In this document: positions 115 through 39,790 of the stretch, in pieces
Layout: every line of letters begins with the position of its first letter
Numbering within the stretch: the first letter of the stretch is position 1
NCBI GenBank assembly: GCA_947626635.1
Contig: CANQSY010000007.1
Span: forward strand, 1 to 43,152
From: an uncultured Akkermansia sp.
GTDB taxonomy: Bacteria > Verrucomicrobiota > Verrucomicrobiia > Verrucomicrobiales > Akkermansiaceae
DNA length: 43,152 bases
Direction: 5' to 3'
Made by a program: the position numbers and the translations under genes
Notes under the pieces: model-generated
Databases searched by the model: none
The model's input: the letters and a program-made list of their open reading frames with translations, nothing else
Told to the model about the DNA's origin: nothing

Positions 115-3100
115 TTAGAAGCTGATTCTGTAACCGGCTGTTGCGTCGAAGGAGGTTTGTCCTGTGCGCCACTCCACCGAGCCGTCCAGGAAGAACGTCC
201 CCAGGTCGGCTCCCAGCGGTATGCTCAGTCCGGCTCCTATTTCGATACCTACGGCACCCACCTCCGCCGACTCCACCTCGGCGAAGTTCTTGCTCCCTAT
301 AATCGCATTGTTCGCCGTCCCGCTCCGGTCTCCCAGATCCGTCTTGAGCAGCACTCGTCCCTCGAAGATCGAGTAGCGGTTCCACGCGTTCGCTCCCAGC
401 GCCGCCTGCATCCTCGCTCCCACTCCCAGCGTCACCGTCGTCTGGTCGATGTCGTCCACCTGCAGTCCCGCGTCGCTTCCCTTCTCCTTATATCCCTTCA
501 CCGCCGCGTGCCTGACCTCCACGTTGATCACCGGCTGCATCGCCAGCGTCCCCGCTTCGTTCATCAGCTTCGTGTAGCCGATCTCATACAGCGCGCCCAC
601 GGCGTAGCCGTCCGTGTCGCCCTTCGTCGTGTAGCTCCCGCTCCCGTAGTTCACCGTCCGGTTCAGCTTGATGTCCGCCAGACCTCCGCTCACGATGAAC
701 GTGTGCGTCCACGGTCCGCTCGACGTCCTCGCAAACGCGCTCACGTACGCCGTATCCATATCTCCCTTGCCCATATCGGCGGAATCCGTCTTCAGGTCGC
801 CGTACATCGCCGTGAGGGCAAGACCGATGGTCGTCCCTGCCGCCACGTCCATATCCATCCCCACCGTGCCGCCCCAGCTGTTGACGGTGTAGCCCGGGGC
901 GAAGCCATCCGCGTCCAGCTTGCGGTACGCGCCCTCGCCGTTGATCCATGCGTGGACCAGCGGGAATTCATCGTAGCCGTCGTAGCGCAGCTCGTTGGCC
1001 ATGGTGGTGGTGCGGTTGCGGATGGTGGTGAGCTGGCGATGCAGGTCCTCCGAGAGCGCCGGACCCAGCGTCGAGATCGACGAGCCGGCTATCGATGCCA
1101 GCGCCTTCTCCAGTCCCTCCTTCTCATTATTGTCCAACATCTCCACCAAACCGAAGATCATTCTCGCGTAGTCCGATTTCGGATTCAGCAACGCGTTGAA
1201 GAACAGGTTAAGCGTATCGCGTTTGTCCTTGATGGAATCCCAGACCATCACCGCGCCGGCGTGAGAATTCTTCTCCATGTTCGGCAGGGTGCGCTCGAAG
1301 GGGTTCTCCTTCGCCGCAGTTGCCCCCACTGTAATCTTACCGTCCTCATCAACCGTTATATTGTGGTCGTTCAGGAAACCATCGAGACCGGAGAACGTCA
1401 CGTGATCTCTGGCAAATTGTTGCTTATCACCTTTAACGTCACCTACCGTGAAATTGGTCGTCAGACTCTGACCCTCCGACATGACCGAATCGCTGTGGAA
1501 ATCGATTGTTCCGTTGCTACCCTGCGCCCCGATAATCGTTCCGGAAACGACATCCGAACTATAACCCTTCTCGCCGTAGTTCACCGTCGTCTTGCCGTTA
1601 CCGAGATCAACGTTGCCCAGCGTCAACTTGCTACCATCCTCCATCTCACTCACGTCGATCGTCAGCTCCGAGTCATCTCCAACCTTCACATCCCATTCAG
1701 CGCCGTCATCGCTCTTGGCGTTGTCCAGCGTGAAACTCGCCCCGTCTGCCACCGCCAAGGTGCCGGCAGAAGACGCCGTGTCACTCATCCCTAGCGTACC
1801 CGAGAACGAGCCGCCGCCCACGGTCAAAGCTCCACCGTCGGCACTCTTCAACGTGCCGCTGCCTGCGAGAGCATCCACGTGGTTAGCCGCGCCGCTGCCG
1901 ACATCCAGCTCTCCATCCACCGTCACCACACCGGCATCCATACCGGCCTCATCACCCACGGTCAGTTTCCCTCCATTCGTGAGATTCACATCCACCCCGG
2001 AGAGTTGTGCTCCCGTGATCTTCCCGTTCTCATCCACCGTCGCCCCCGTTCCGTTAAGTTCGAGCGAAGCCCCTCCTCCATCCAGCGTCACCGAGCCGCT
2101 TCCGTCGCCCGTGATCTCTGTATTCCCCAGACCACTCTTACCCGTCAGGGTCAGATTACCGCCGCTGCTCACCTCAACCTTATTCTCGCCCCCGGTCACA
2201 TCATCATCGTTGATGGAACCTACCGTGGTTTGTCTCCCACCGACCGCAAACTCGCGTTTTTCCTCACCCGTCGCATCATCCGCTTGGTTGAACACAACAT
2301 CTTTCAGCGTGTTCGTGTCGCCGTTGAGCACAAGCGCCCCGTCCGTGATGGTGGTCGTATTGTTCTCCACCTTGTAATCACCCCCTACGGTCAGCGTACC
2401 CGCACCGGTCTTCTCCACATCCACGTTTGTGGAAGTGATACTCCCCTCGAAGAGCGTATCCATCCCTGCGGCTTTTTCTTTTTGTCCCGGCGTGAGTCGC
2501 TCGTCATTTACCGGATCGTACGTATTATTCAATGCCACCTTACCGCTCGCATCGGCATGAAGAGTCAGTCCGGATCCCTCTCCGCCCACAAGGTTGTGCA
2601 GGACACCATCCTCACCCGTCACTGTGACATCAAGGTTCTGTCCCTCGTCCACCAAAACGGCCCTCTTATCCGCTAAATCTGCCACGTTCGCCTCCGTAGC
2701 ATCACCACCTTTCGTCACGAAGTACACATCATCGAGCCTCAATTCCCCTTGAAGCACGATATCTCCACCATCTGCTTTCACTCCATCTTTTGCCAACCCG
2801 AGCATTTGAAGCATCTGTGCAGCACCTTGTCCAGCGTACATCAATTCTGAGGCATCGAAAGTTTCACCGAAATGCAACGTGCCGTTTTCTAATACGTGCA
2901 AACGCGTTTCCTTGCCACCATTAATGGCGTCCTTGAGCGCCCTGAAGAAGGCCGAGTTGGAGAAATTGAGCGTGACACCATCCGCACTGTTGATCGTGAT
3001 TGTCGCGCCCTCACTCTCGATGAGATAGTCCTCTCCACCCGCTGTATTTAAGTTAGACTCCGTGAATGTCAGCGTGAGCTTCTTATCGGACGAGGTCTCA

Positions 3101-6100
3101 TACGTTCCCGTGAGACCGGTGAGCTTGCCGTACTCATTGATCATGATACCATCCAACTTTTCTGCCTCCATTCCGTTCACGTTCACGATGCCGCCCTGCG
3201 GAGTCGCCGCACGTGCAGCGGATCCAGCCGCAGCCGTGTCCACATAGATTTTGCCTGTTCCCTTTGTTGTGAAGCCCTTCTCGCCTGTCAGCGTCACGTT
3301 GCGCAGATAGATGTCACCGGCTCCCTGCGCAGTGGTACCGGCCCATTGAGCTTGCTGTCCCAAGGCTCCGAGCTCAATGCGCGAACCAGCCTCCGTTGCC
3401 CCCAAAGCTCCGGTCGTTCCGTTCTTCCCGGTAAGCACCAGCTTGCCCGTGCCATCCTTCACCACGGACGCCGAATCGGACACCACGCCGCTCATCGTCG
3501 TTTCCTTCTCCGAAGCGAAGTGATAACTCCCCTCGCCTCCCATATTCGTCGCGATCTCAGAATCACCGCCGGACAGCGTCCACTGCGAGTCCGTCTCGGT
3601 GCTCAGCGAACCCTTGTACTCCGTCAAACCGCCGGAGATCGTCAGATCCGCCCCTTCCTTCGCCGTGAGTACGGTATCCGTTCCCTCTGCCTTGAGAACG
3701 CCATCGATGGACATCTTGCCGCCCATGGAGGCGCTGCCTTTCACGTCCACCGTCCCCGTCACCGCCGCACCGTCCGCCCCGGCGAGAGTGCTGCCCTCCT
3801 GCAGCGTGATCGTCGTGTCCGCAGTACCGAGTGCACCGTTTGCCGATCCCTTCAGGGTCGCTCCGCCCGCCACCTCGATGTTCTTCACATCATTTCCCTC
3901 GTTGCTCAGCGTCACCTCGCCGTCAGCCACCTTCAGCGTACCGTCGCCGGTGACCTTGCCGGACAGCGTTGCCGAGCCGCCTACGTTGAGTCCCAAGACT
4001 CCGTCCTTCACGGTGATGCCGCCCCCATGCTCGCCGTCAGTGTCGCTCCAGGCGAGATCAAATTCGCCCGCGCCGTCCTTCTCCATGCCGTTTGTGAGGC
4101 CGAGTTCCACGCCTCCGGTCGCTGAATTGCCGTTCTCTCCCCAGCTCAGGTTATTTGTCCCTACGTCCACTCTCAGCGGGCCGGAGCTATTCTTAGCATC
4201 CACCTTGTCGTTCCAGTCGTTCGCAGAGGTCACGTCGTCGCCAAGGGCGAGCTGTCCGCCGTTGAACTCAATCTTGCCCTCATCACCCACAGTGACATCG
4301 GCATTGAGCTTTAGATCACCTCCCAACACAATACCGCCCGCAAACGAACCCTTCACCTGCATGTCGAGACTCGCGCCTTCGGACACTTCAAGCTTGCCGC
4401 TCGAGGTCAAACTATCATCTCCCACTCCATCTCCTTGGAAGGTGTAAGCCCCGCTCTTCACCTTCACATCGCCGGATTGAATCGGTCCATCAAGCACGAC
4501 ATTCTTTTTCTCTGCCTTATCCGTGAACACAACAGGCGTGTCATCAGCAGGCTCCTCACCTTCCTTCCAGTCGCCTCCCGCTGACCACGTTCCGTTCCCT
4601 TCACCCGTCCATATCGAACCTTCGATCTCTGAGAACGTCAGCATGCCCTGTTCATCCAAGTTCCATTCCAACAAGGAATCACTCGATTCTACCTCGATAT
4701 CGAAGAAATCCTTCCACGTCTTACCGCTAGCACTAGCTCCGAGCTTCTCCCACAGCGTTTCAAAGTCCGTTTGACTGAAGAGTTGGTACGTCGTCTGCCC
4801 GGCGTTATGCCACGTGTCATACCCCTCCAACGTGATGCTGAGCTTGCCGTCGACACCCAAGGTCAACTCCGTAAAGTCGAGATTCTCGCCTTCAGCCGTC
4901 ATGGTGAGCGTCAACGAACCGCCGCCCTCACTCGCGTCAATCGTCGTCCCCTTCAACTTCCCGCTGCCGACCGTCAGATTCGCATCCGCCCCCAATGTGA
5001 GCGTGGTGAGTGATCCGGATCCGGTGATTTGAGAAATCTCCGTGTTCGCGTTAATCGTGAGAGAACCACCCGTAACTACAAGATTGCTGATCGTGGAATT
5101 CTCCCCTGCAACAGTCATGGAACCACCGGAAAGTTCTGTCGTTCCACTCAACGTTGCCTTCCCATTCAACACCAAACTCCCTGCTTTCACATTCACCTTT
5201 GCGTCCGATGCACTCGTCGCCGTACCTCCTACTGTTACATCGTATGTGGAGCCATCCACATCGAGAGAGCTCGTACCGTTGACTTCAAGCTGGGCTGCCA
5301 GTGTCGCGCCGTGTTTGAGAATGAGACCACCCTCGTCCACAACCAAAGCCTGAATCGACCACCAGCCGCTAGTTGGAACATCTTTCTCTGCTCCTATATC
5401 CGAGGAATCCAGTGTTATGATGTTAGTTCCCTTTTTCTTAAGACCGACGCCATCAAAAGTAAAATGCCCTTTACTGAATTCACTATCTGAATCGTGCCAG
5501 TTAAGCACAAGTTTTGTATCATCTCCATATGCTCCATTTGTGAACATCTCTTTATCGTTACTATTCAACACAAGGAAAACATCTCGCGTTGTACCTTGCT
5601 TCTTGCTGAAGGTGATACCCTTACTGTTATTGTTAAATGCCATGGCCTTGACCGTCAAGTCGCCGCCAAGTTCAATCTTTGCACCCCAACTCACATCAAG
5701 CGTCCCGATACTGCTGTCCGAACCGAGACTGACAGTACACGCAAAGCTCGACAAGGTTCCCGCTCCGGACAGAGAGCCGAAGCTGTTGCTCCCGCTTACA
5801 AAAACTTTTGCGCCGCTGGCTATTTCGAGATTTCCATCCACAGTGAGAGTCGCAGCGCTCAACGTTAACGTCGTTCTTTCACCCACGCTCATATTCCCGG
5901 TCACGGTCACCGATTTACCTCCGCTGAATGTGTAGGCAGGCGAATCTTGAGCACTTGCCGCCACGGTCAAATTATTCATTGTCGCATGCTCCCCCACAGT
6001 AACTGCAATCGAACCACTCTCTGCCTCAAGATGCACGTTCTTGTTCGCAGCCCACATAACATCACCGGCCTTCCCGGATTCATTACTCCATGCCCCGCCG

Positions 6101-9100
6101 CCATCTCCCAGGGTCAGTTTTGTGAGATCTCCCTCACCTTTTCCCCAGTAGAGATTCTCTCCCGGTTCCGGTCCCGTCCAGGTCAAGTAGCCATTATCAT
6201 CAATCGTGATTCCTTGATACTTGTCCTCTGTATCATCTGACACCACAAACTTAAAATAGTCATGCCAATCTTTGTTCCAGTGTTCACCGAAAATCTGGAA
6301 GCTTCCTCTTTCCACTCCTTCCAGATAGGACGTCCCAAACTGTATGGCCAGTTGATTATTCTTGCTCGCGCCGGTAAAGCTCAGCCTCTCGCCCAGAAGA
6401 ATCTGCTGTCCCTTTGCCGAGAGCGTGATGGAGCTACCCGACTCCCAGCTCATACCATCGGTAATCGTAATGCTTCCATCCGTGAGCGTAAGTTGTCCGG
6501 CTTGCGCCTGCTCGCCGAGTTTCAGCGTATGCAGCGAGAGAGAGTCTTTGATACTACTCACTGTCACCGCTTTTCCCCCTGCTATCTCCAGTGTGCCGCC
6601 TGTCCCTTTCATCGCCGCAATCTTCGTATTCTCCTTCAGCACGACCGTTCCATCAGTTTTCAAGTCCAACGTTCCCGCAAAATTTGTGGAAGAGAGGTTG
6701 AGAGTGGCTCTCGTCTTCACCGCAAGCGTTCCCTTGAACTGCGACGTGTCGCCACTCAAGTCGAGAGTTACGGTCTTACCAGCGTTCTTTTCAATCGCTG
6801 TGGCGTCCAACTCGAGACTCGCGCCCTCCGCGGAAGACAGCTTCTCCGTCAGGGTATAACTCTGCGTTGCGTCAGCTCCTGAATTTGTCGAGAGGACAAT
6901 GGTCCCCTCCTGAATATCGAACGCTACGTGTTCACCAAAGTTTCCTTGATAATTGCCGCTGGTGTTTTTCCCGGCGAAGATGAGACTGCTTGTCCCTTTC
7001 TTCGTGAAGGTTCTCGTAGTGTTATCAGCAGAGGAAAGCAGGCTGTAGAATTTCAAATTATCACCGGTCACAGAGACGGTCGCGTCGGCATCAAGAAAGA
7101 GATCGACCCACGTGTTGGCGGAATGCGTATTTGTTGCGCTGAAGATGAGAGCTCCCGCCCCCCCTCTCCCGCTGCCTGCAAGATGCACATCCTGTCCATT
7201 TGCAAAAACGGCATATGCAGTGTCGGTGCTACTGCTCCCTGATATCTCTATCGAGGAGCCACTTTCAACATTTATGAGTTGCTCAGACACAAAGGGAGTA
7301 TTCTGACAATGCAAAGTTAACTTTGAATTGTTCTTCAACGTAATAGCAAGAACCTTCTGCAGGTTCCCGTAATTACTTGTGGAAGTCCCATTAAATTGCA
7401 GCGTACTTCCGTCTAATTCCAACTCGCCGAGTCTATAAGTTGCTCCCGGTAGGAAACCGCACGCCAATTCCCCACTTAGTCCTTTATAGACCAGTTTGCC
7501 GCTGTATCCTTGACCATCACCAAGAGAAACGCCATAAACGGGATGTACGGTTCCGGGAAGAACCTCAAGCACGAGGGTTCCGCCATTACCTAACCGCACA
7601 AAGCCCAAGTTCGTTGCAGTCACACCTGAACCAATGGTCACGGTACCAGATACAATATCTATCCCCTGTGTGTTTGTGATATCGCCATCCCCCATATTCA
7701 CCGTTCCGCCGGAGAAGGTAATACTGCCGCCGTTAAGAGTGATACCTGTAGCCTCCGTGCCATTACTGAGAGTGAGACCGTTTTCAAAGGTGATATCCCC
7801 TGCGTTCACGACGAGCTGTTTTGCCGAAACCGTGAGACCGCTTTTAAAGTTCACATCCGTGTTCAGCGTGAGAGACCCCGTAACCTCAAGCGGCTGGCTT
7901 CCGCTAAAGTTGTACGTCGCTCCTTCTCGAATCGTGAGATTGGCCATGGTGGCATTTTCAGCGACTGTCACCTCTACGGCACCCGACTCTGCTTCCAGAT
8001 AAACGTTCTTGCTTTGCTCCCACTCCCCCTCTCCGCTTTTTCCTGCTTCCTCACTCCATTGATTGCCTCCCGTTCCCAGGGTCAACGTTGTGTGTTCTCC
8101 ACCACCTTTTCCCCAGAAAAGCCCTTGTTCGATTTCCGTCCAGGTCAATGTTCCGTCCGCATTAAGAGTAACGTTAGTGATCGTCTTGCCGCTCTGATCA
8201 ACAAATGTAAACATACCTGTCTTGTCGGCAAGCCAGCTCAAATCATCCCCTCCAAAGAGCAGGAAGGAATCATGCGCATCTCCAAATGTATAATCGGTCA
8301 ACTGGATCGTTAATGTTTCAACACTGCCGCCTTCGTCAAACTCCAGCCCGGTGAGAGTCAGCACACCCTCAGCGTGCTCCCCCATGTTGAGCGAAATCGT
8401 CGATCCGGTCGTTCCTCCCACGCTAAGCGTCCCGGCGGTGAGCGTGTGATCCCCCAGCACGAGCGTGGAATCAACCAGCTCCAGCATCTTTAGGGTACCC
8501 TCTACCCCCTCAATTCCTTTCGTGCCGATGGTGAATGACTTTTCAGTGCCGCCATCAAGTGTCACCTTGGCTTCGCGAATCTTGAAGTCGTAGCCCGTCT
8601 CAGCCTTATTTGCCAGGCTCAGCGTTACATTGCTCTCCTCCCCCTTTCCGGCAATGCCGTAGCCTACGCCGTCTCCGACCTGCTCCGATCCCTTGGGGGC
8701 AAAGGCATCGTACATGCTATTCAGGTTACTCACATTGCTCCCCGCTGCCTCGCTGAAGAGAATATACACGTTTTGCTCTCCAGTGCGTGAAATGTGCCGC
8801 ACTTGACCTGCAGGCTTGTTTTGCGCCGTACCGCGGTGTAAATCGCCAACCTCCAGATCACCCCCAAGCGTCAGGGAAGAATTCGCCCATGCAACGTGGA
8901 ATGTACCGGATATCTTGCCACCTTTGGACAAAGTCAACCCATTGTAGAGAGCCCAGTTGCCTTCCACGTCCAACTTCCCTTTGATGGTCGTTGCGGCATT
9001 GATCAACAATCCTTTTGTGACAACAAAGCTCTCATTAAGATTTGCTTGTTCCACTGTAACATCTCCCTCAATCGTGGTCTCTGCACCTGTCAGTTCTAAG

Positions 9101-11439
9101 AGACCTGCCTCTATGGTCACATTTCCCCAAAGGTGTGTCCTGTTATAAACACTCGTGTAATTGTCTCCATCCACTGCATAACCGGTGAGGGTCTGCGTAC
9201 CACTGCCTCTTTTCACCAAATTAACGGCATCATTCACCGACGTGCCGAGCCAGAGTCCCGCGACGCTGTAATTAGAGCTATTGTTAATGATCAGGTTCTT
9301 TTTCTCTGATGAAGACGACTTGAACTGACCGGCTCGACCTACTGAAATGTTTCCACGCTCCAACCCACCGATCTCAAGATCACCACCTAGACTCACCTGT
9401 CCGCCCCATTCGGATATCCCCATAGTACCTTTCAAGTTGCCGCCGTTGGTGAGCGTGACCCACTTATTGTTGCTGGCGTCTGCCGTAGCGATGATGACTT
9501 TTGCCCCGCTTTCCCCGGTCAAACTCTGAATCGTGTAGGCCTGACCGTCAAACTGCACCGTGCCGGAATCAATTTTCAGATCGGTCGCGCTGAAGAGATT
9601 TCCGTCTATTAAAAACTTTTTATTATGATCCTCACTTGCGTCATATGCTCCTTTGAAAATGATCGTATCTGCATTCGCCACTGAAATACCCAGACCTACC
9701 CCCTCGCCAAGGGTACCAGTTTTCAACCATGTAAACGCATCGCTGTTGCTGGCGTCCACGTCAACAGTAAGCCACACCGTATCCGCCTCTGTCTCCTCAG
9801 ATTTGCTGAAGTTCAACTGACCCGTCAACGCTCCCTGCACATGCATGTCCTTACCCAGCACGACATTGGCAGCTGCGCTTGAACCACCCTGCAGACTTTC
9901 CTTCACGGTGGTCGCAACCTCAAAGGTCGTTGTGGTGGAATCAGCCAATGACAATGTTCCTTCTACCTCTAGCGTATGATCATCGGAGCCTTTGAAGCTG
10001 TAATCGCCTCCGGTCACCTGCATGTCATCCGTGATTACCGAGGAAGTGATATTGACTGTTTTTTGCACTGCGTCCGCGCCAAACACGACGCTGGAGCCAT
10101 TCTCCCACGTACCCCCAGTAAACGATTCTTCTTCACCCCAGGTGTCTTTCGTGCCGCTCCATGTGAGTGTCGATAGAGCAGTCGTTAATTGCCCGTTCTC
10201 CTGAAGTTTCCACTTACCAGCAACTCCGGTGAAGGAGATCTTTTCATGCCAGTCGTTGTACCATTCAGCAGTCGATGTAAAAAGCTGAAGACCCTCTAAT
10301 GATGAAAATTCAATACCGCTCAAGTCGATGACCAACGATCCACTTCCGGAAAAATCCGAGAAAGTCAATTGACCATCTTCGGCCAATTTCAACGTAGCAG
10401 TTCTGTTGAGCACAACCGTGTTTGCCGTCAACGTATTCCCCCCAATATCCCATGAAGCCCCTTCTTCCAACGTGAGCGTCCCAATCGCTCCTGAAAGCTC
10501 CGTCACGCTAAAGTTTGCAGACGCAGCAAGAGTAAGTGACGCATTGTCGGCAAACTCCAGCTTGCCTTGCATGTCGCCACCACCCAATGTGTAAGTCTTA
10601 TTCGAACCTCCGAGCTTTACTACGGTTTTTTCTGTGCTGTTGAGTTTGCCCAACACACCGCCTCCCTCCAATGCCAGTGTACCGCCGTTATCCGTCCATA
10701 TATTTGCAATTTTAGAAAAATCTAATGTCTTATTTGCACCCTTTACTTCTCCTTTAATGGTGAACGTGCCTTTTTCGGAGGCAATTTTTGCATCTTCAAT
10801 CAACTCAAGATATCCCGTTGTCGTAATATCTACTTGATAGGCTAGTGCTGCATTTACAGCCGTGCCCAATACTTCATCACTTATAGAGGACCCTCCCAAG
10901 TGGAAGTTAGTCGAAATGTTCGTTGCCTGAGTAACGCGGAAGAATGCTTGCGCTGCACCATTCACGTACAAATCCTTAATATTATTGAACGCAGCTCCAT
11001 CATCGTTATCGCCCTCGAAAGAAAATCGCGCAGGTCCGGTAAGCCACACTCCATCAAAATTACTCAATTTTAAACGCAAGCCCCCCTTAGAAGTCTCCCA
11101 TGAACCACCCTCTATTTTGATGCTTGTGCTGTCGTTACCTGAAAGCGTGTAGCCTTGACTCGTATTGTCAGCAAATTTTATTGCAGGCAGCGTAATCACC
11201 GTATCAGTACTGTATGCTGCCTCCTTCTTTCCCTCGTTAAGTGTGTCGTCCGTCGCCCACCCATCCGTGTCCGGCCAGGAAGGCTCCTCCGCATTCGCCC
11301 GCTGACTCGCGATGAGGAACACCGCGGCGATGCCTGAGGCGGAGGCAATGGTGGTGGGGATGGTGGCAGCGGGCAGAGCTACCGCAGCAAGGCAAGCCAG
11401 GAGAGCCTTGCGAAGACCCGAAGGAAGATGCAGTTTCAT
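115..11439 (-). CDS. Giant autotransporter (type Va-like) adhesin: long N-terminal signal region, about 3400-aa beta-helical repeat passenger, C-terminal autotransporter beta-barrel
   Basis: Single 3774-aa ORF. N-terminus MKLHLPSGLRKALLACLAAVALPA...RANA is an extended signal sequence. Passenger has repetitive G/T/S/L-rich PATR-like repeats (e.g. VVKDGTGKLVLTGKNG). The last ~280 aa are barrel-like (LVHAWINGEGAYRKLDADGFAPGYTVNSWGGTVGMD...) and end in F (TAGYRISF). Confidence 0.93.
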   Translation of the reverse strand: MKLHLPSGLRKALLACLAAVALPAATIPTTIASASGIAAVFLIASQRANAEEPSWPDTDGWATDDTLNEGKKEAAYSTDTVITLPAIKFADNTSQGYTLSGNDSTSIKIEGGSWETSKGGLRLKLSNFDGVWLTGPARFSFEGDNDDGAAFNNIKDLYVNGAAQAFFRVTQATNISTNFHLGGSSISDEVLGTAVNAALAYQVDITTTGYLELIEDAKIASEKGTFTIKGEVKGANKTLDFSKIANIWTDNGGTLALEGGGVLGKLNSTEKTVVKLGGSNKTYTLGGGDMQGKLEFADNASLTLAASANFSVTELSGAIGTLTLEEGASWDIGGNTLTANTVVLNRTATLKLAEDGQLTFSDFSGSGSLVIDLSGIEFSSLEGLQLFTSTAEWYNDWHEKISFTGVAGKWKLQENGQLTTALSTLTWSGTKDTWGEEESFTGGTWENGSSVVFGADAVQKTVNITSSVITDDMQVTGGDYSFKGSDDHTLEVEGTLSLADSTTTTFEVATTVKESLQGGSSAAANVVLGKDMHVQGALTGQLNFSKSEETEADTVWLTVDVDASNSDAFTWLKTGTLGEGVGLGISVANADTIIFKGAYDASEDHNKKFLIDGNLFSATDLKIDSGTVQFDGQAYTIQSLTGESGAKVIIATADASNNKWVTLTNGGNLKGTMGISEWGGQVSLGGDLEIGGLERGNISVGRAGQFKSSSSEKKNLIINNSSNYSVAGLWLGTSVNDAVNLVKRGSGTQTLTGYAVDGDNYTSVYNRTHLWGNVTIEAGLLELTGAETTIEGDVTVEQANLNESFVVTKGLLINAATTIKGKLDVEGNWALYNGLTLSKGGKISGTFHVAWANSSLTLGGDLEVGDLHRGTAQNKPAGQVRHISRTGEQNVYILFSEAAGSNVSNLNSMYDAFAPKGSEQVGDGVGYGIAGKGEESNVTLSLANKAETGYDFKIREAKVTLDGGTEKSFTIGTKGIEGVEGTLKMLELVDSTLVLGDHTLTAGTLSVGGTTGSTISLNMGEHAEGVLTLTGLEFDEGGSVETLTIQLTDYTFGDAHDSFLLFGGDDLSWLADKTGMFTFVDQSGKTITNVTLNADGTLTWTEIEQGLFWGKGGGEHTTLTLGTGGNQWSEEAGKSGEGEWEQSKNVYLEAESGAVEVTVAENATMANLTIREGATYNFSGSQPLEVTGSLTLNTDVNFKSGLTVSAKQLVVNAGDITFENGLTLSNGTEATGITLNGGSITFSGGTVNMGDGDITNTQGIDIVSGTVTIGSGVTATNLGFVRLGNGGTLVLEVLPGTVHPVYGVSLGDGQGYSGKLVYKGLSGELACGFLPGATYRLGELELDGSTLQFNGTSTSNYGNLQKVLAITLKNNSKLTLHCQNTPFVSEQLINVESGSSIEISGSSSTDTAYAVFANGQDVHLAGSGRGGAGALIFSATNTHSANTWVDLFLDADATVSVTGDNLKFYSLLSSADNTTRTFTKKGTSSLIFAGKNTSGNYQGNFGEHVAFDIQEGTIVLSTNSGADATQSYTLTEKLSSAEGASLELDATAIEKNAGKTVTLDLSGDTSQFKGTLAVKTRATLNLSSTNFAGTLDLKTDGTVVLKENTKIAAMKGTGGTLEIAGGKAVTVSSIKDSLSLHTLKLGEQAQAGQLTLTDGSITITDGMSWESGSSITLSAKGQQILLGERLSFTGASKNNQLAIQFGTSYLEGVERGSFQIFGEHWNKDWHDYFKFVVSDDTEDKYQGITIDDNGYLTWTGPEPGENLYWGKGEGDLTKLTLGDGGGAWSNESGKAGDVMWAANKNVHLEAESGSIAVTVGEHATMNNLTVAASAQDSPAYTFSGGKSVTVTGNMSVGERTTLTLSAATLTVDGNLEIASGAKVFVSGSNSFGSLSGAGTLSSFACTVSLGSDSSIGTLDVSWGAKIELGGDLTVKAMAFNNNSKGITFSKKQGTTRDVFLVLNSNDKEMFTNGAYGDDTKLVLNWHDSDSEFSKGHFTFDGVGLKKKGTNIITLDSSDIGAEKDVPTSGWWSIQALVVDEGGLILKHGATLAAQLEVNGTSSLDVDGSTYDVTVGGTATSASDAKVNVKAGSLVLNGKATLSGTTELSGGSMTVAGENSTISNLVVTGGSLTINANTEISQITGSGSLTTLTLGADANLTVGSGKLKGTTIDASEGGGSLTLTMTAEGENLDFTELTLGVDGKLSITLEGYDTWHNAGQTTYQLFSQTDFETLWEKLGASASGKTWKDFFDIEVESSDSLLEWNLDEQGMLTFSEIEGSIWTGEGNGTWSAGGDWKEGEEPADDTPVVFTDKAEKKNVVLDGPIQSGDVKVKSGAYTFQGDGVGDDSLTSSGKLEVSEGASLDMQVKGSFAGGIVLGGDLKLNADVTVGDEGKIEFNGGQLALGDDVTSANDWNDKVDAKNSSGPLRVDVGTNNLSWGENGNSATGGVELGLTNGMEKDGAGEFDLAWSDTDGEHGGGITVKDGVLGLNVGGSATLSGKVTGDGTLKVADGEVTLSNEGNDVKNIEVAGGATLKGSANGALGTADTTITLQEGSTLAGADGAAVTGTVDVKGSASMGGKMSIDGVLKAEGTDTVLTAKEGADLTISGGLTEYKGSLSTETDSQWTLSGGDSEIATNMGGEGSYHFASEKETTMSGVVSDSASVVKDGTGKLVLTGKNGTTGALGATEAGSRIELGALGQQAQWAGTTAQGAGDIYLRNVTLTGEKGFTTKGTGKIYVDTAAAGSAARAATPQGGIVNVNGMEAEKLDGIMINEYGKLTGLTGTYETSSDKKLTLTFTESNLNTAGGEDYLIESEGATITINSADGVTLNFSNSAFFRALKDAINGGKETRLHVLENGTLHFGETFDASELMYAGQGAAQMLQMLGLAKDGVKADGGDIVLQGELRLDDVYFVTKGGDATEANVADLADKRAVLVDEGQNLDVTVTGEDGVLHNLVGGEGSGLTLHADASGKVALNNTYDPVNDERLTPGQKEKAAGMDTLFEGSITSTNVDVEKTGAGTLTVGGDYKVENNTTTITDGALVLNGDTNTLKDVVFNQADDATGEEKREFAVGGRQTTVGSINDDDVTGGENKVEVSSGGNLTLTGKSGLGNTEITGDGSGSVTLDGGGASLELNGTGATVDENGKITGAQLSGVDVNLTNGGKLTVGDEAGMDAGVVTVDGELDVGSGAANHVDALAGSGTLKSADGGALTVGGGSFSGTLGMSDTASSAGTLAVADGASFTLDNAKSDDGAEWDVKVGDDSELTIDVSEMEDGSKLTLGNVDLGNGKTTVNYGEKGYSSDVVSGTIIGAQGSNGTIDFHSDSVMSEGQSLTTNFTVGDVKGDKQQFARDHVTFSGLDGFLNDHNITVDEDGKITVGATAAKENPFERTLPNMEKNSHAGAVMVWDSIKDKRDTLNLFFNALLNPKSDYARMIFGLVEMLDNNEKEGLEKALASIAGSSISTLGPALSEDLHRQLTTIRNRTTTMANELRYDGYDEFPLVHAWINGEGAYRKLDADGFAPGYTVNSWGGTVGMDMDVAAGTTIGLALTAMYGDLKTDSADMGKGDMDTAYVSAFARTSSGPWTHTFIVSGGLADIKLNRTVNYGSGSYTTKGDTDGYAVGALYEIGYTKLMNEAGTLAMQPVINVEVRHAAVKGYKEKGSDAGLQVDDIDQTTVTLGVGARMQAALGANAWNRYSIFEGRVLLKTDLGDRSGTANNAIIGSKNFAEVESAEVGAVGIEIGAGLSIPLGADLGTFFLDGSVEWRTGQTSFDATAGYRISF
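118..965 (-). other. Autotransporter beta-barrel domain within the giant ORF
   Basis: Alternating amphipathic strands from LVHAWINGEGAY to the terminal aromatic-ending strand FDATAGYRISF. Confidence 0.8.
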
Positions 11440-31100: not shown

Positions 31101-32627
31101 TCAGCTCTTTTTCCTGGGTCCCGCGGACGCGGACTCCTCCTGTGCAGGAACACCCTTTTTGCCGAGATAGCCGGGCAGTTCAACACCGACGGATGAGGCA
31201 AGCTCATGCAGAGGAAGAGTTCCTGTCACGAGATTTTGAACAAAGGAACCCACGGAACCGCTCTGTGAATCGGCACCTCCCCCCATAACGATCACCTTAT
31301 CGAAGGAGAGACCGCGCACGGCCGAGGCCTGCGTCTCCACGATTTTCGGGAGTTGCTCAGTGACAAGCAGACCGGAGGCGGCCTTGGCATCTCCGGCAGC
31401 TTGTACAATACTGCGGAAACCACTAGCCTTTGCCTCAAGAGCGGCTTGAATCGCGGCGGCCTGACCGCGTCCCACCATCTCCACGCCCTCGCCTTCTGCC
31501 TTCTTCTTGAGCAGCAAGGCATCCGCCTCGCCCTTCGCAAGTTTGATGGCGGCATTTCCTTCCGCCTCCTTGGCAATGACCAGGGCGTCCGCCTTACCTT
31601 GTTCCTCCTTCACCCGCACGGCAGCCGCTGCCTCGGCTGCAATTTCCTGCTTTCGTTTGAGAATTTCCGCGGCCACAATTTCGTTGGCGGTTTGCTTGGC
31701 TCGCTCGAGGTCGGCGCGCTTCATTTCAGCCTCACGGGACGCGATGTAGCCCGCTTCTTCCGCTTTGGCGGCCTGCTCTCGTTCAGCGACGAGCGCGATG
31801 CGTCGAGCCTCCGCCTGGCGCACCTTGAGTTTAGCGTTGGAATCCGCCACCTTCATCTCGGCCTCGTTGTTACCTTCTACGGCAGCGGCATTCGCAAGAG
31901 CCACCTGAATCGTCTGGTCGCGCAGCGCCTCTGCCTTGCCTATCTCGCCGCGCCTCGTTTCCTCCGCTACCTTGATCATGGCGTCGTTAATAGCGCGCGC
32001 AGCCGCTTCCTGACCGAGGGCTGCGATGTAACCCGATGCATCGCGAATATCGGTGATGTTCGCGTTGATGAGGTAGAGCCCCACCTTGTGCAACTCCACA
32101 TCCACGCCGCCGGTGATTCCCTTGATGAGCTTTTCGCGGTCAGCATTGATCTCCTCAATCGTGAGCGATGCAATAACCACGCGCATCTGACCCATAATGA
32201 TTTCGGAGGCAAGGTCGCGGATATCCTGTCTGGAGCGTCCCAAGAGACGGCTGGCCGCGTTCTGCATGATCTCCGGTTGGGTACTGATCCCCACGATGAA
32301 CGAGGAAGGCACGTCCACGCGTATGTTCTGGCTGGATAGGGCCCCCTTAAGAGGCACGTCGATATTGATGGGGTTCAAATCCATGAAAGCATAGCTCTGA
32401 ATAACCGGCATCACGAACGTGGCGCCACCGTGGATACACTTTGCCGACCTCCCCGCACCCACATTGCCGTACACGATAAGAATCTTATCCGAGGGACACA
32501 TCTTGTAGCGGCTGAAAAGGAAAGCGACCGAACCAACAATCGCAAGCACGATGATGAGAATGCCGATGATTGCCGAGGCCGGAACATCCGGGGATTGCTG
32601 AGCGAGGGTAATGATTGATGAGGTCAT
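31101..32627 (-). CDS. Flotillin-family SPFH protein (YuaG/FloT-like)
   Basis: TM then SPFH (MCPSDKILIVYGNVGAGRSAKCIHGGATFVMPVIQSYAFMDLNPINIDV), long Ala/Glu/Lys coiled coil, C-terminal GLSFDKVIVMGGG. Confidence 0.92.
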   Translation of the reverse strand: MTSSIITLAQQSPDVPASAIIGILIIVLAIVGSVAFLFSRYKMCPSDKILIVYGNVGAGRSAKCIHGGATFVMPVIQSYAFMDLNPINIDVPLKGALSSQNIRVDVPSSFIVGISTQPEIMQNAASRLLGRSRQDIRDLASEIIMGQMRVVIASLTIEEINADREKLIKGITGGVDVELHKVGLYLINANITDIRDASGYIAALGQEAAARAINDAMIKVAEETRRGEIGKAEALRDQTIQVALANAAAVEGNNEAEMKVADSNAKLKVRQAEARRIALVAEREQAAKAEEAGYIASREAEMKRADLERAKQTANEIVAAEILKRKQEIAAEAAAAVRVKEEQGKADALVIAKEAEGNAAIKLAKGEADALLLKKKAEGEGVEMVGRGQAAAIQAALEAKASGFRSIVQAAGDAKAASGLLVTEQLPKIVETQASAVRGLSFDKVIVMGGGADSQSGSVGSFVQNLVTGTLPLHELASSVGVELPGYLGKKGVPAQEESASAGPRKKS

Positions 32628-32633
32628 GATGAT

Positions 32634-33257
32634 TCAGGAGTTAGAGGAATTGAGAGGACGAACGGTGAGACAAGTCGTGCTGGCCTGCACCACGATGATA
32701 CGAGTTTGGGCCGGAAGCGGAACATCGCCGAACTGGATGGCTTCCATCGTGACGAGACGGCTGGGGTGCGATACCTGCACCTGACCACCCGGTTCGCCAT
32801 GCGGCGGGATAGTGACATAGACAGAACCCGTGGCGCCCACGAGTTCAGCATAATTCAGCGAACCGTCGGACTTGAGACTGTAAATGAGGCGCATGAGACC
32901 GGCTATGATAAAGAAAAGGAACAGACCGAGACCCAAACCCACCAAAATGGCCGAGAGAACGCCAAGCCCCATTTGCACGGCAATGTAGCCGCCCCACCCA
33001 AGACCGAGCAAAAAGCCTACGACGGCACGTACGGAGACAGCCCCCGTCGCCCCATCGGGCGTGTCGCTTGCAACGTCAACATCCGCATCTCCCCCGAAAT
33101 CCATGAAAAAGGAAAGCACCATGCTGCCCAACGTCAGCAATGTCGCTATCCACGCTATCGCACAAAATATACCACGTGCCGACGAAAAGTCCGGCAGTAG
33201 ATCCGCCGCACGCAAGAGGTCCATGATAGAGGACAGTATCCTGAGGCATGTTTCCAT
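32634..33257 (-). CDS. NfeD/YuaF-like membrane protein partner of flotillin
   Basis: Several TM segments followed by an OB-like domain (GATGSVYVTIPPHGEPGGQVQV...TRIIVVQASTTCLTVRPL), immediately upstream of flotillin. Confidence 0.75.
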   Translation of the reverse strand: METCLRILSSIMDLLRAADLLPDFSSARGIFCAIAWIATLLTLGSMVLSFFMDFGGDADVDVASDTPDGATGAVSVRAVVGFLLGLGWGGYIAVQMGLGVLSAILVGLGLGLFLFFIIAGLMRLIYSLKSDGSLNYAELVGATGSVYVTIPPHGEPGGQVQVSHPSRLVTMEAIQFGDVPLPAQTRIIVVQASTTCLTVRPLNSSNS

Positions 33258-33348: not shown

Positions 33349-36300
33349 ATGGGGGAGACCGATATTCGCATTATCCTGAGTGACGCCCGCAACAAAGGCT
33401 GGAGTGATCAAGCGCTGGTTCAGCGAGCTATGGATTTGACGCGCCTCGTCAATGGGGCTTCTCTCAAATATTTGCATACGGAAGAACGCCTCTTTCTCTC
33501 TGCCATGGCGCGGCTCGTGCAGGATCCCACGGAGCGCCGCTTCGTGCAGCAACTCTGCAAAAACGTGCTCAACGGCAAGGCAGAAACGGCAAACGAGGAG
33601 CTTCGACGACTGTTGGACCAGCATGGCGGCGTGCCCACGTTCTTCAGTTCAATGGGACGCTTGCGCATCAAGGCTGCGGGGATGGCGCCGCGGGGGATGC
33701 AGGGCGCCGCGATAGCCGAGGTGAAGCGGGTTTTTCGTGCCACGTTCGGGGAGTTGCTCCTACCTGCGCAACCGAGCAAAATCTACCGTCGCGCCGATGC
33801 CTTTCTGAAGGATGGACTTCGACTGCTGCTCTCCCCCCTCTCCCCCGACGTTTTCGGCAACAAGAGCGCAGAACGCTACGCGCAATGCCTGCGCGCCCTC
33901 ATCCAAAAGCAGAAAGGCGTTGGTATCGTCGTGCAAACGCACCGACTCTGTCCGACTCTCTCCCCGGCGTCTCCCGAGTTCGGCACCCGACGTCTCGCAG
34001 AATCCCTCATTCCCATTGTTCACGAGGCGCAGCAGACGACAAACTGTCCGGTCGTGATACAGCCACACTGCGGGGATACGCTGGCTCTCGTTGCGGATGC
34101 CGTCAGACTCGTGCTGGACAACCAGGAGACCCGGGATGCCGACGTGTGGCTTGAGCTGCCGGCGTACTTGCGCACGAGCATGATCGTGCTGCGTGGGCTT
34201 GTGGAATGGGCTGAGGCGCGGGCAAAGCGCGGAGCTTCTCCGCTCAAGATTCTCTTGGTTAAAGGCGACCGATGGGAGACCGAGCGCGCAAGCAGCGCTT
34301 ACTACGGCACATCTTCCCAGCTCTGCGCCAGCAAGGCAGAGACGGATATCAGCTACACCCGCCTGCTCAACGCCGCCATGGACAGCCCCTCGGCAGCAAT
34401 CGTGCCCGTCATAGGCACGCAAGACCTCGTGCAACTCTGCTATGGTGTTCTGCGTTGGATTCGGTCCGGTCGCGACAACCTGCCGCCGCTCTCCCTCCTC
34501 TACGGCTTCGGCAATCACGTGGGGAGACTATTTTCTCACCTCGGATGTCCGGTCCATCTTCTTTCGAACGTGGCGACGGAAGAAGCGGAGGATCGCCTCT
34601 TCGAGCAGCATCTCCTCGACGTGCTGCACGAGCTTTCGCGTCCGGGAGGCTTCCTCACAGCCGGTTATGCGCCGGATGCCTCCGAAACGAATTGGGCGGG
34701 TAAATCCAAGCCGCTCATGGCGGCAAACAGTCCGCTTGAGACACACGGGGAGTCAACGTCCACGCCGACGGGAGATTGGCAACCCGGCAATATGGGCAGT
34801 CTCCTCAACCGCGCCGAGGTCAACCGCTTCTATGCCGTCGCTCAGGCCGAAAAAGAACGCACGCAGGCTCCCATCCCTCTCGTGGTCGGTGGCGAGCAGC
34901 TGCAAAGTCCCCTCATCTGTATCCATCGCTCTCTCACCGTTCCCCGCCTTGAAGACTACCGCTTCACAAGCGCCGACTACGCCGCCGTGGAACGCGCCGT
35001 GGAGCTGGCGGGTAACGCCGCGCGCGCACGCATCCCCGACGCGGAAGAGCGACGGGCGGCATTACGCCGCGCCGCTAAGGAGCTGCGCCGCCGCCACGTA
35101 GAGATATCGGCGCTACTGGCACGCGACGCAGGATTCACCCTGCCGGATGCCGAACGCGAGGTCCGCGATGCGGTGGATGCCCTCCGCTACCACAGCGCAG
35201 AGGGCGAGGACATCAATGGCTTGTTGGACGGCACGTCTCCGGACCCGCTCGGCATTGTTGTTGTCTCCACCGGCTCGGCAAATCCGCTCACTGAGGCGGC
35301 GAATTCTATCGCGGCAGCCTGGATGGCGGGCAACAGCATCATCTACAAACCCATCGCCTATACGACCCTCCTCGGCAAAAACTTTGCTGAGTTGCTGAAA
35401 GCCGCCGGTGTCCACTTGATTTTTCTTCCTTGCATCGACAACGAGATTGCTCAAAAGCTCGTGACGGACCCGCGGGTGAAAGCCGTGCTCTGCACCGACA
35501 CGCAGGAAACGGCCTACCATTACAGCTCGCATGCACCGCGCTCATCGGTCTTTTGCTCTCCCCTCCACGGTCCATCCGTCTATCTCGCTGCATCGTGCGA
35601 CTGGCAGAATGCCGTGCGTGAGTTAGTCTCCGTGGGTCTTTTCCGCAGCGGACAGAGCCCCTCGTGTCCGCACGTCATTCTCGTGCACCAAGAGCTCTAC
35701 GAGAGCCCCGACTTCCGCACCGCCATTGAGGATGCCGTCAGCAGCTACGAGGCAAAACCAACTTGGCTGGAAGGGGCCGATCTGGGTCCACTGTCTACTC
35801 CCCTTCATGAGGGAGAGCGTCAGCTGCTCACCTCCCTCTCCGCCTCGGAGAACTGTCGGGTCAAGCCGCGCGGCGCCGAGCCGGGCACTCAGATCTGGAG
35901 TGCCGGACTGGTGGATGAAGTGCTCCATCAACCCGCTGTTCTGCAGCATGGGATGCGCCTTCCTTTGCTCGGTCTCGCCCGCGTGTCGGGTTCAAAAGAA
36001 GCCGCCGACATCCAGCGACGACTTGCGAACGGCTCCCGTGCTGTGATCTACTCACGCGACAAGGAGGAAATCGCAGAGTGGGAGCGAGAGGTGGCCTGCC
36101 GCGGCATTGCCGTCAACTGCGCTCCTTACTGGCGACCCGGCATTCTTCCCGTCCCGATGTGGACCACTTCGCTCCACGCGGCCACGGGGCCGCTCTGCGG
36201 TTCAACAAACGCCACGGTAGCGCTCTGCAACTGGACGGAATCAGCACGCCCATCTGTACGTAGCGCCAGACGCCACCTCAACTTTGACCCCAAGGATGTT

Positions 36301-36825
36301 CTGCCGCCGTCCTCCGGAGTTGAGGGAGCGATGCGTCTTTCTTCAGCAGCTGACTCCCTATCCTATTGGTGGGAAAATGAGTTTTCGGTCACCAAGGAAT
36401 TTTCGGCGGCGGACGGTCTGTCCGTGGTTACTTTTTATTCGCCTGTGCGGCAAATGTTGCGCGTAGAGAAAACCATGTCGGACGTTGACTTGGCGATTTA
36501 CCTGATGGCAGCGATGCAGGTACGCAGTCAGGTGGAGCTCAGTCTCGCCGCGCCGCGCTCATGGCTCACGATGTTTGCGGAGCAGTACGGCGTTTCCGTT
36601 GACGTTCAGAATCGAGATGAATTTGAGGCGGGTTTCCCCGCCCTCGCAGCGCACGCTGTCCTCCTGCGCGACCCGGCAGCCGATGACCAAACGGTGGCGC
36701 TTGCCGCCGCCTGCGGACTGCGCATGCAGACCTCGCCTGTGTTGGCCAATGGACGCATTGAGATGCTGCGTCACGTGGTGGAGCACGTGCGCGTTACACG
36801 TCTCTCCACCGAGCAGGAATTTTGA
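33349..36825 (+). CDS. PutA-like bifunctional proline dehydrogenase / P5C dehydrogenase fold protein with divergent active sites
   Basis: PRODH-like: PLKILLVKGDRWETERASSAYYG...SKAETDISYTRLLNAAM. ALDH-like: NPLTEAANSIAAAWMAGNSIIYKPIAYTTLLGKNFAELLKAAGV. ORF opens at 33061; an ATG at 33337 or 33349 fits the upstream promoter. Confidence 0.78.
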   Translation: MGETDIRIILSDARNKGWSDQALVQRAMDLTRLVNGASLKYLHTEERLFLSAMARLVQDPTERRFVQQLCKNVLNGKAETANEELRRLLDQHGGVPTFFSSMGRLRIKAAGMAPRGMQGAAIAEVKRVFRATFGELLLPAQPSKIYRRADAFLKDGLRLLLSPLSPDVFGNKSAERYAQCLRALIQKQKGVGIVVQTHRLCPTLSPASPEFGTRRLAESLIPIVHEAQQTTNCPVVIQPHCGDTLALVADAVRLVLDNQETRDADVWLELPAYLRTSMIVLRGLVEWAEARAKRGASPLKILLVKGDRWETERASSAYYGTSSQLCASKAETDISYTRLLNAAMDSPSAAIVPVIGTQDLVQLCYGVLRWIRSGRDNLPPLSLLYGFGNHVGRLFSHLGCPVHLLSNVATEEAEDRLFEQHLLDVLHELSRPGGFLTAGYAPDASETNWAGKSKPLMAANSPLETHGESTSTPTGDWQPGNMGSLLNRAEVNRFYAVAQAEKERTQAPIPLVVGGEQLQSPLICIHRSLTVPRLEDYRFTSADYAAVERAVELAGNAARARIPDAEERRAALRRAAKELRRRHVEISALLARDAGFTLPDAEREVRDAVDALRYHSAEGEDINGLLDGTSPDPLGIVVVSTGSANPLTEAANSIAAAWMAGNSIIYKPIAYTTLLGKNFAELLKAAGVHLIFLPCIDNEIAQKLVTDPRVKAVLCTDTQETAYHYSSHAPRSSVFCSPLHGPSVYLAASCDWQNAVRELVSVGLFRSGQSPSCPHVILVHQELYESPDFRTAIEDAVSSYEAKPTWLEGADLGPLSTPLHEGERQLLTSLSASENCRVKPRGAEPGTQIWSAGLVDEVLHQPAVLQHGMRLPLLGLARVSGSKEAADIQRRLANGSRAVIYSRDKEEIAEWEREVACRGIAVNCAPYWRPGILPVPMWTTSLHAATGPLCGSTNATVALCNWTESARPSVRSARRHLNFDPKDVLPPSSGVEGAMRLSSAADSLSYWWENEFSVTKEFSAADGLSVVTFYSPVRQMLRVEKTMSDVDLAIYLMAAMQVRSQVELSLAAPRSWLTMFAEQYGVSVDVQNRDEFEAGFPALAAHAVLLRDPAADDQTVALAAACGLRMQTSPVLANGRIEMLRHVVEHVRVTRLSTEQEF

Positions 36826-38279: not shown

Positions 38280-38446
38280 AGTTACCACAGACGCTTTGCG
38301 GACCCATCGGACAAGCTTTCGTTTACGTGACATCCCATCATTCTGCTCGTCACCGTCCAGCGAAAACTCACAGATGCCGGATAAACCCGCAAAAAAAGGT
38401 TGCCAAACATGTAATTTCGGAGTACCCTAGGGGCGCGAAGGTTGAT

Positions 38447-39790
38447 ATGGACGAAAGCAAACAAGAAGCAACGGTTGCCTTTGATCTTTCAGAGTTGACG
38501 GAATTTCAGTTCGGACCGGATTGGGCTCGGGCGAGCGCCTCTTCCCCCCAGACGCGTTTTGCTCAGACGAACCGCGCGGAGCGGGAGCGCAAGCATTCCT
38601 CCGGTCCTCGTGACAACCGCAATCGTCCGCCGCGCCACCGCGAGGGCTCACTCTCCCACGGACGAGGAGAACGGCGGGATGCCCAGCGCCGCGAACTGCC
38701 GGAACCGGCCACAGGTCTGCGCGTCGAGGTTCGTCCCTGCAACCCGATTCTTGCTCTCTTTGCCACCGAGATACAGCGTCAGAAACGCGCCCTTTCCCTG
38801 CTGGATCTCTCTCGTGTGGTCGTCGCCAAAAAGGAGCGATATGATCTCGTCTTCATGAAGCAGGAGGGAGGTCCGATGCTCATCCACTCGCTGCGCGAAG
38901 ATGGCGCATGCTGGCTTACTGAAGCCGAGGCCCTCGCCTACATCCACCGGGCCCCGTGGTTGAGTGAATTTTATTCGACTGAGCAAGTGCAGGTGGAGCC
39001 GCCTAAAGGTACATTCACTGCCATCGCCGTCTGCTCGCTCGGCGGAGAGGTCATCGGACCCGTCAACTGGCATGGCTACCAGCCCACCATTACTCAGCTC
39101 TACAAGGAGAAATACTCTTCGATGCCCATGAGCGCCTTCCGCGCGGCCATCAACGTCAACAAGGATGAAACCGCCGTCCAGCAGTGGCTGCAGGACGCGT
39201 CCACTCGCACGGTCTGGCACCCCACTCGCGAAGAGGATCGTCAAAAAGTCCTCTCCGATATGAAGGAGGTCGAGCAGGACTTCCGTGATCACCATTATTC
39301 GCAAGTCTACGAAGTGGTGGAGAAGGTGTTTATCAACGGAGCAACACCTCCTTCTCGCCTCTCTCCGGGACTCGCCGCGCACCTCTCTATCCTTTCCGGC
39401 AAGCACCGCCGCAACCCCCAAATCCTTATCCCCAACCTCTGCCACGGTCTCGCACGGCATCACATGCCTATCTACAAATGGCACGGTCACCACTACACCG
39501 GACCCAACCGCATTCGTGCCGTTCCGGCTGAGACAGTGCTGGCAGATCGCATGGCTGCTATTCTGAAGTGGAGTCAGGAGAACTCCGGTAAGAAAGCGGA
39601 TGCCATGTTTGCTGAACTCTCCGGCGTACCGGCCGGCACTGATGAGGCTTCCAAGCAAGCGGCAGCCGATGCGTACGCTCCCTATACGGCTGACATGATC
39701 TGGCTCATGGAACAGGGCTTTATTCTCGTGACCAACGACAACTCTGTTTGGTTCCCCAAGGGTGACGCCTCCCCGGAGAAAAAGGCGTAA
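38447..39790 (+). CDS. Uncharacterised protein, basic Arg-rich linker N-terminus and conserved-looking C-terminal region
   Basis: Long ORF downstream of bioG-like. MDESKQEATVAFDLSELTEFQFGPDWA, then RAERERKHSSGPRDNRNRPPRHREGSLSHGRGERRDAQRR, then folded region VIGPVNWHGYQPTITQLYKEKYSSMPMSAFRAAI.... ORF track begins at 38327. Confidence 0.75.
   Translation: MDESKQEATVAFDLSELTEFQFGPDWARASASSPQTRFAQTNRAERERKHSSGPRDNRNRPPRHREGSLSHGRGERRDAQRRELPEPATGLRVEVRPCNPILALFATEIQRQKRALSLLDLSRVVVAKKERYDLVFMKQEGGPMLIHSLREDGACWLTEAEALAYIHRAPWLSEFYSTEQVQVEPPKGTFTAIAVCSLGGEVIGPVNWHGYQPTITQLYKEKYSSMPMSAFRAAINVNKDETAVQQWLQDASTRTVWHPTREEDRQKVLSDMKEVEQDFRDHHYSQVYEVVEKVFINGATPPSRLSPGLAAHLSILSGKHRRNPQILIPNLCHGLARHHMPIYKWHGHHYTGPNRIRAVPAETVLADRMAAILKWSQENSGKKADAMFAELSGVPAGTDEASKQAAADAYAPYTADMIWLMEQGFILVTNDNSVWFPKGDASPEKKA

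Follow-up and report, generated by a model that had tools for sequence, protein, structure and literature searches.

The open reading frame on the forward strand between positions 33349 and 36825 of the window (the whole 43,152-nucleotide stretch analyzed here, from contig 7 of a draft Akkermansia genome of 2.16 Mb and 98.8% completeness) is unbroken over more than 3.4 kb, as a sequence-only reading of the locus had reported, and its features are collected in Table 1. The homology to PutA noted in that reading turned out to extend over the full length of the protein. A proline dehydrogenase (PRODH) barrel and an aldehyde dehydrogenase (ALDH) domain were recognized in one chain both by Pfam (Aldedh, 2e-36; Pro_dh, 2.4e-16; both over the curated cut-offs) and by profile-profile alignment, and no RHH family was found among the Pfam matches, unlike what is expected of a type C PutA. 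The NCBIfam PutA equivalog model gave the protein 97 bits against a cut-off of 747. The frame is the sole Pro_dh match in its genome; a second, canonical putA, the search for which had been proposed, was thus not found there. The same reading had credited the gene with its own promoter, a claim that found no backing in a consensus scan of the forward strand, where no sigma-70-like site was seen, although scans of this type cannot exclude one. Elsewhere in the window, a single unusually long frame of 3774 residues occupies positions 115-11439 of the reverse strand, and a 487-residue frame on the forward strand (38327-39790) has no convincing Pfam or NCBIfam family match.

Table 1. Features of the putA-like gene and its divergent neighbors in the window
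Feature	Coordinates	Strand	Basis or remark
PutA-family pseudoenzyme gene	33349..36825	+	Intact ORF, 1158 aa; type B architecture without RHH domain
N-terminal helical region, residues 1-150	33349..33798	+	Constraint relatively higher in the derived clade than in canonical proteins (per-domain divergence)
PRODH-like barrel, residues ~150-440, active site lost	33796..34668	+	Pro_dh match, alignment columns
HLLDVLHE, equivalent of YLVRRLxE, Arg pair replaced by Asp-Val	34609..34632	+	Alignments
P5CDH-like (ALDH) domain, residues ~540-960; Cys, Glu, Asn and EFGP lost	34966..36228	+	Aldedh match, alignment columns
GQSPSC, Pro771 at the catalytic Cys position	35650..35667	+	Alignments
C-terminal domain, residues ~960-1158; R967, R971, R975 and W1007 newly invariant in the derived clade	36226..36822	+	
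NfeD-like membrane protein, weak Pfam match	32634..33257	-	Divergent neighbor; adjacency to putA' conserved in the window's subclade alone
Flotillin/SPFH protein	31101..32627	-	Divergent neighbor; adjacency to putA' conserved in the window's subclade alone

An AlphaFold2 model of the window protein, built from 16 sequences comprising only the window protein and sequences of related loci, predicted that the whole PutA fold is retained (pLDDT 79, pTM 0.76). When this model was used in a structure search, the 50 PDB matches listed were all PutA structures, the best being Corynebacterium freiburgense PutA (5ux5; TM 0.71/0.85 over 1067 columns), and 5kf6 likewise matched as a full-length PutA fold.

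Using the residue numbering of E. coli PutA (locus L070), and canonical Verrucomicrobiales PutAs as a further reference, we found both active sites of the window protein to be dismantled. The motif HLLDVLHE lies exactly where it had been read and aligns with YLVRRLxE, such that the Arg-555/Arg-556 pair becomes D424-V425; GQSPSC, also located as described, aligns with GQ(K/R)CSA and places P771 in the column of Cys-917. The suspected loss of the segment carrying the P5CDH glutamate was equally borne out, the Glu-883 column being occupied by S737 in FCSPLHGPSV. The damage goes beyond these sites. In the PRODH barrel, Lys-329, Asp-370, Gln-404, Arg-431 and Tyr-540 are replaced in the alignment by Q196, Q238, P271, L302 and L405, respectively; in the ALDH domain, the oxyanion Asn of the PWN motif is replaced by A644, and the EFGP motif is gone, the protein reading GMRLP where canonical enzymes have EVFGP. 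Crystallography of Sinorhizobium meliloti PutA has assigned roles to Arg488, Arg489, Lys265, Tyr473, Cys844 and Glu810 (PMC12398946): the window protein lacks the equivalents of the first four, which are PRODH substrate residues, and those of the P5CDH catalytic Cys and Glu, together with the oxyanion Asn.

The same losses run through 38 related sequences, hereafter referred to as derived. None of the 38 has Cys in the Cys column, Glu in the Glu column or the Arg pair, and a single one retains the PWN Asn; each catalytic residue checked was present in 20 of 20 canonical sequences. Over the PRODH domain as a whole, 89 of the 105 columns invariant in canonical PutAs are lost in the derived clade, where other residues have become common at the sites concerned (Pro at Gln-404 in 35 of 38, Leu at Arg-431 in 32, Glu at Asp-370 in 30). 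That the true catalytic residues merely sit a few positions off, as the Cys found two residues past the lost position in GQSPSC might lead one to think, is a reading we hold to be most improbable and have rejected. Eighteen of the 38 derived sequences have no Cys at all within three residues of the Cys column, the four positions on either side of the Glu column are free of Glu in 35, and 33 have neither Arg nor Lys within three residues of the Arg-555 column; since Cys, Glu and Arg are not consistently found nearby, rescue by a local shift, which the sequence-only reading had named as grounds for giving up its interpretation, can be ruled out across the clade. When the derived and canonical families were aligned profile to profile (1146 columns, 100% probability), the register of the first alignment was recovered, so that two methods concur.

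When 59 relatives were searched, homologues turned up in nearly all of the same-genus genomes. A Pro_dh survey of 59 genomes of the genus yielded at most one match per genome, with a bimodal distribution of scores: 180-212 bits in 12 genomes with canonical proteins and 28-95 bits in 44 with derived ones. The derived copy in genome G014 is so divergent that the Pro_dh model misses it, and no putA was found in G016 and G071 by either homologue search or Pro_dh survey. Full-length open frames with ~35-71% identity to the window protein were found in some 30 species. In a class-wide profile search of 140 genomes, scores at the derived level were confined to Akkermansia. The canonical residues are preserved in A. 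muciniphila-type species and in other Verrucomicrobiales. A scan of genome contigs returned 15 records from Akkermansia or Akkermansiaceae, and the titles of many of these name the gut of ruminants or deer as the source; the derived clade is a large group of gut Akkermansia, mostly from animals. The 38 derived sequences fall on one side of a single branch of the protein tree (SH-aLRT 100), and in the rpoB tree the derived genomes group with G016 and G071, which are without putA', in one clade (100/100), to which G027 is sister (98/94) and G013 next (100/100), both with a canonical-type PutA. Because the protein clade matches an rpoB clade placed beside canonical Akkermansia, descent appears to have been vertical, and a horizontal origin is unlikely.

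The PutA of the sister lineage is half-decayed. In G027, every PRODH residue tested is present, as is the P5CDH Cys, but the P5CDH site is broken by N779R, E883G, F1020S and two further changes around the PWN motif, and unusual changes number 15 in the ALDH region versus 5 in the PRODH region. By this comparison, decay was stepwise, and the ALDH site appears to have been the first to die. Genes for proline synthesis are missing too: proA and proB were absent from the sampled derived genomes and from G027, as was proC from nearly all of these, whereas all three were present in canonical genomes wherever tested. Judging from these absences in draft genomes, the derived lineage seems to have abandoned P5C metabolism and to rely on scavenged proline, and would accordingly be a proline auxotroph. 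Clear ornithine cyclodeaminase-family genes were seen only in G071 and G074; the former, a basal genome of the derived clade without PutA, is also the one member of the clade in which proC was seen. A replacement P5CDH encoded elsewhere was considered and rejected: the second ALDH of G000 (~436 residues; contig 27, L071:3076-4383) fails the P5CDH cut-offs, its best NCBIfam match being a benzaldehyde dehydrogenase model, itself below cut-off. Comparable strong, separate ALDH matches were obtained from the derived genomes tested and from G016, and not from canonical ones.

Pairwise dN/dS ratios among orthologues, another check that had been called for, were computed by the Nei-Gojobori method, with some synonymous distances near saturation, and lay between 0.07 and 0.13 for most derived pairs, with similar values in every domain (0.05-0.10 for canonical pairs). 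The derived protein is therefore under purifying selection while lacking its catalytic residues, the combination by which a pseudoenzyme is recognized. One exception was the G003-G030 pair, with a ratio of 0.35; the G030 gene (L031/L069) appears frameshifted, which suggests a recent loss of putA' in that branch. This case and the absence of the gene from G016 and G071 are what could be said for a decaying pseudogene whose frame stays open by chance. Full-length frames in some 30 species and ratios near 0.09 elsewhere contradict such a reading, which we reject as scarcely credible. How constraint is distributed along the protein has also changed. The ratio of divergence in the terminal domains to that in the PRODH and ALDH cores was 1.58 (95% interval, 1.47-1.70) in canonical and 0.87 (0.81-0.94) in derived proteins, two sets whose differing depth and taxonomic breadth weaken the exact comparison of rates. 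Constraint is thus inverted in the derived clade, the terminal domains being more conserved than the catalytic cores. Together with the newly invariant residues of the terminal domains, this inversion of rates points to a role that falls to the periphery of the protein and not to its pockets.

In its genomic setting, putA' is immediately preceded at 39 derived loci by an exosortase gene (xrt, assigned from matches to PF09721) and a gene that we take from its sequence to be epsI-like, all on one strand, the gap usually being less than 70 bp, with prs standing divergently upstream. The prs/xrt-epsI block also occurs in canonical Akkermansia, devoid of putA; the block is thus ancestral, with putA' a later arrival in the derived clade. 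This relocation, and the same-strand position that goes with it, would fit an accessory factor of an exosortase-based surface-protein sorting operon, co-transcribed with xrt-epsI in most of the clade. We nevertheless regard this reading as improbable. Most other Akkermansia have a PF09721 exosortase, yet no match was found in the window's subclade (G000, G025, G020, G033, G008, G014 and G063), which has kept putA'; G061 and G073 carry the gene elsewhere; and adjacency by itself is not function. Strict dependence on the exosortase is thereby rejected and, putA' having outlived the exosortase in the window's subclade, a partnership would be optional at most. The PTPS/QueD-like and BioG-like neighbors were also dismissed as partners, as they were not found beside putA' in the close relative L003.

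A more serious contender is an enzyme with a new function, in which the barrel would bind FAD and act on a different substrate. The derived sequences retain K434, G435, K459 and E559, and mostly H487, which we presume from E. coli structures to be FAD contacts in canonical PutAs; FAD binding in the barrel is thus possible, and the barrel may still perform some chemistry. Clade-specific conserved polar residues (Gln/Glu at Lys-329, Glu at Asp-370, H780 and R766) may contribute to a new site, and the newly common residues listed above speak in the same direction. A new specificity built on Gln/Glu at Lys-329, Glu at Asp-370, Leu at Arg-431 and Arg-556 and the GQxPxxPH segment nevertheless strikes us as unlikely, if clearly less so than the exosortase reading: divergence in the derived clade is faster in the cores than in the terminal domains, a reversal of the canonical pattern, most canonical-invariant PRODH columns are lost, the ALDH domain has no conserved nucleophile, and the Arg-555 position is free to vary. 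Of the two outcomes proposed in the sequence-only reading, a bifunctional pseudoenzyme is well supported, by the clade-wide double loss, purifying selection, the lack of a second putA and the half-decayed sister; for the other, a new specificity, no conserved replacement catalytic set was identified.

We consider it probable that the window protein belongs to a clade-wide double pseudoenzyme, descended vertically from a bifunctional PutA and kept for a non-catalytic role. At the root of a single Akkermansia clade, an ordinary proline-catabolic PutA would have been stripped of its two activities. In a lineage dependent on scavenged proline, burning proline would have been useless or harmful, and catalysis would no longer have been selected; a second, non-enzymatic property, perhaps that of a partner- or ligand-binding scaffold or of a regulator, would have been retained and refined, working through the N-terminal helical region and the C-terminal domain. 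To the fuller proposition, that a two-site enzyme was turned clade-wide into a scaffold or regulator in gut bacteria without proline/P5C metabolism, its initial recruitment perhaps owing to joint expression with the exosortase operon, we would give an even chance.

The presence of PutA is normally taken as a sign of proline catabolism. Annotation based on Pfam would name the derived genes proline dehydrogenases and so put errors into metabolic models of Akkermansia from animal guts. The derived clade, its half-decayed sister and the canonical outgroups also constitute a natural series leading from a channeling enzyme to a pseudoenzyme, which should be useful for finding out what the PutA scaffold does without chemistry.

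In a search of open-licence papers, no description of a PutA or PRODH pseudoenzyme came to light, nor of a PutA with both sites dead. In architecture, the closest known system is type B PutA (defined in PMC5293562), exemplified by the C. freiburgense protein (5ux5), with which the window protein is homologous over its full length and shares a helical N-terminus, a PRODH barrel, an ALDH domain and a C-terminal domain, devoid of RHH, in a modeled fold that is alike over about 1070 columns; it differs in lacking all tested catalytic residues of both sites. In a related family, the second PutA paralogue of genome G048 (L068, contig 273) has degenerated independently and resembles the derived proteins in its degenerate P5CDH site (Cys replaced by Gly, Glu by Ser) and the loss of Arg-555. 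Unlike them, it sits on a long branch of its own in the tree, keeps PRODH Lys-329, Asp-370, Arg-431 and Arg-556, and shares its genome with a canonical PutA (L054). Among ALDH-superfamily pseudoenzymes, a single-domain kind is already known in ALDH16A1, which has lost its catalytic residues, maintains the ALDH fold and is thought to act by protein-protein interaction (PMC10650815). ALDH16A1, however, lies outside the PutA family and lacks a PRODH domain, whereas in the window PutA two unrelated sites are dead in one polypeptide.
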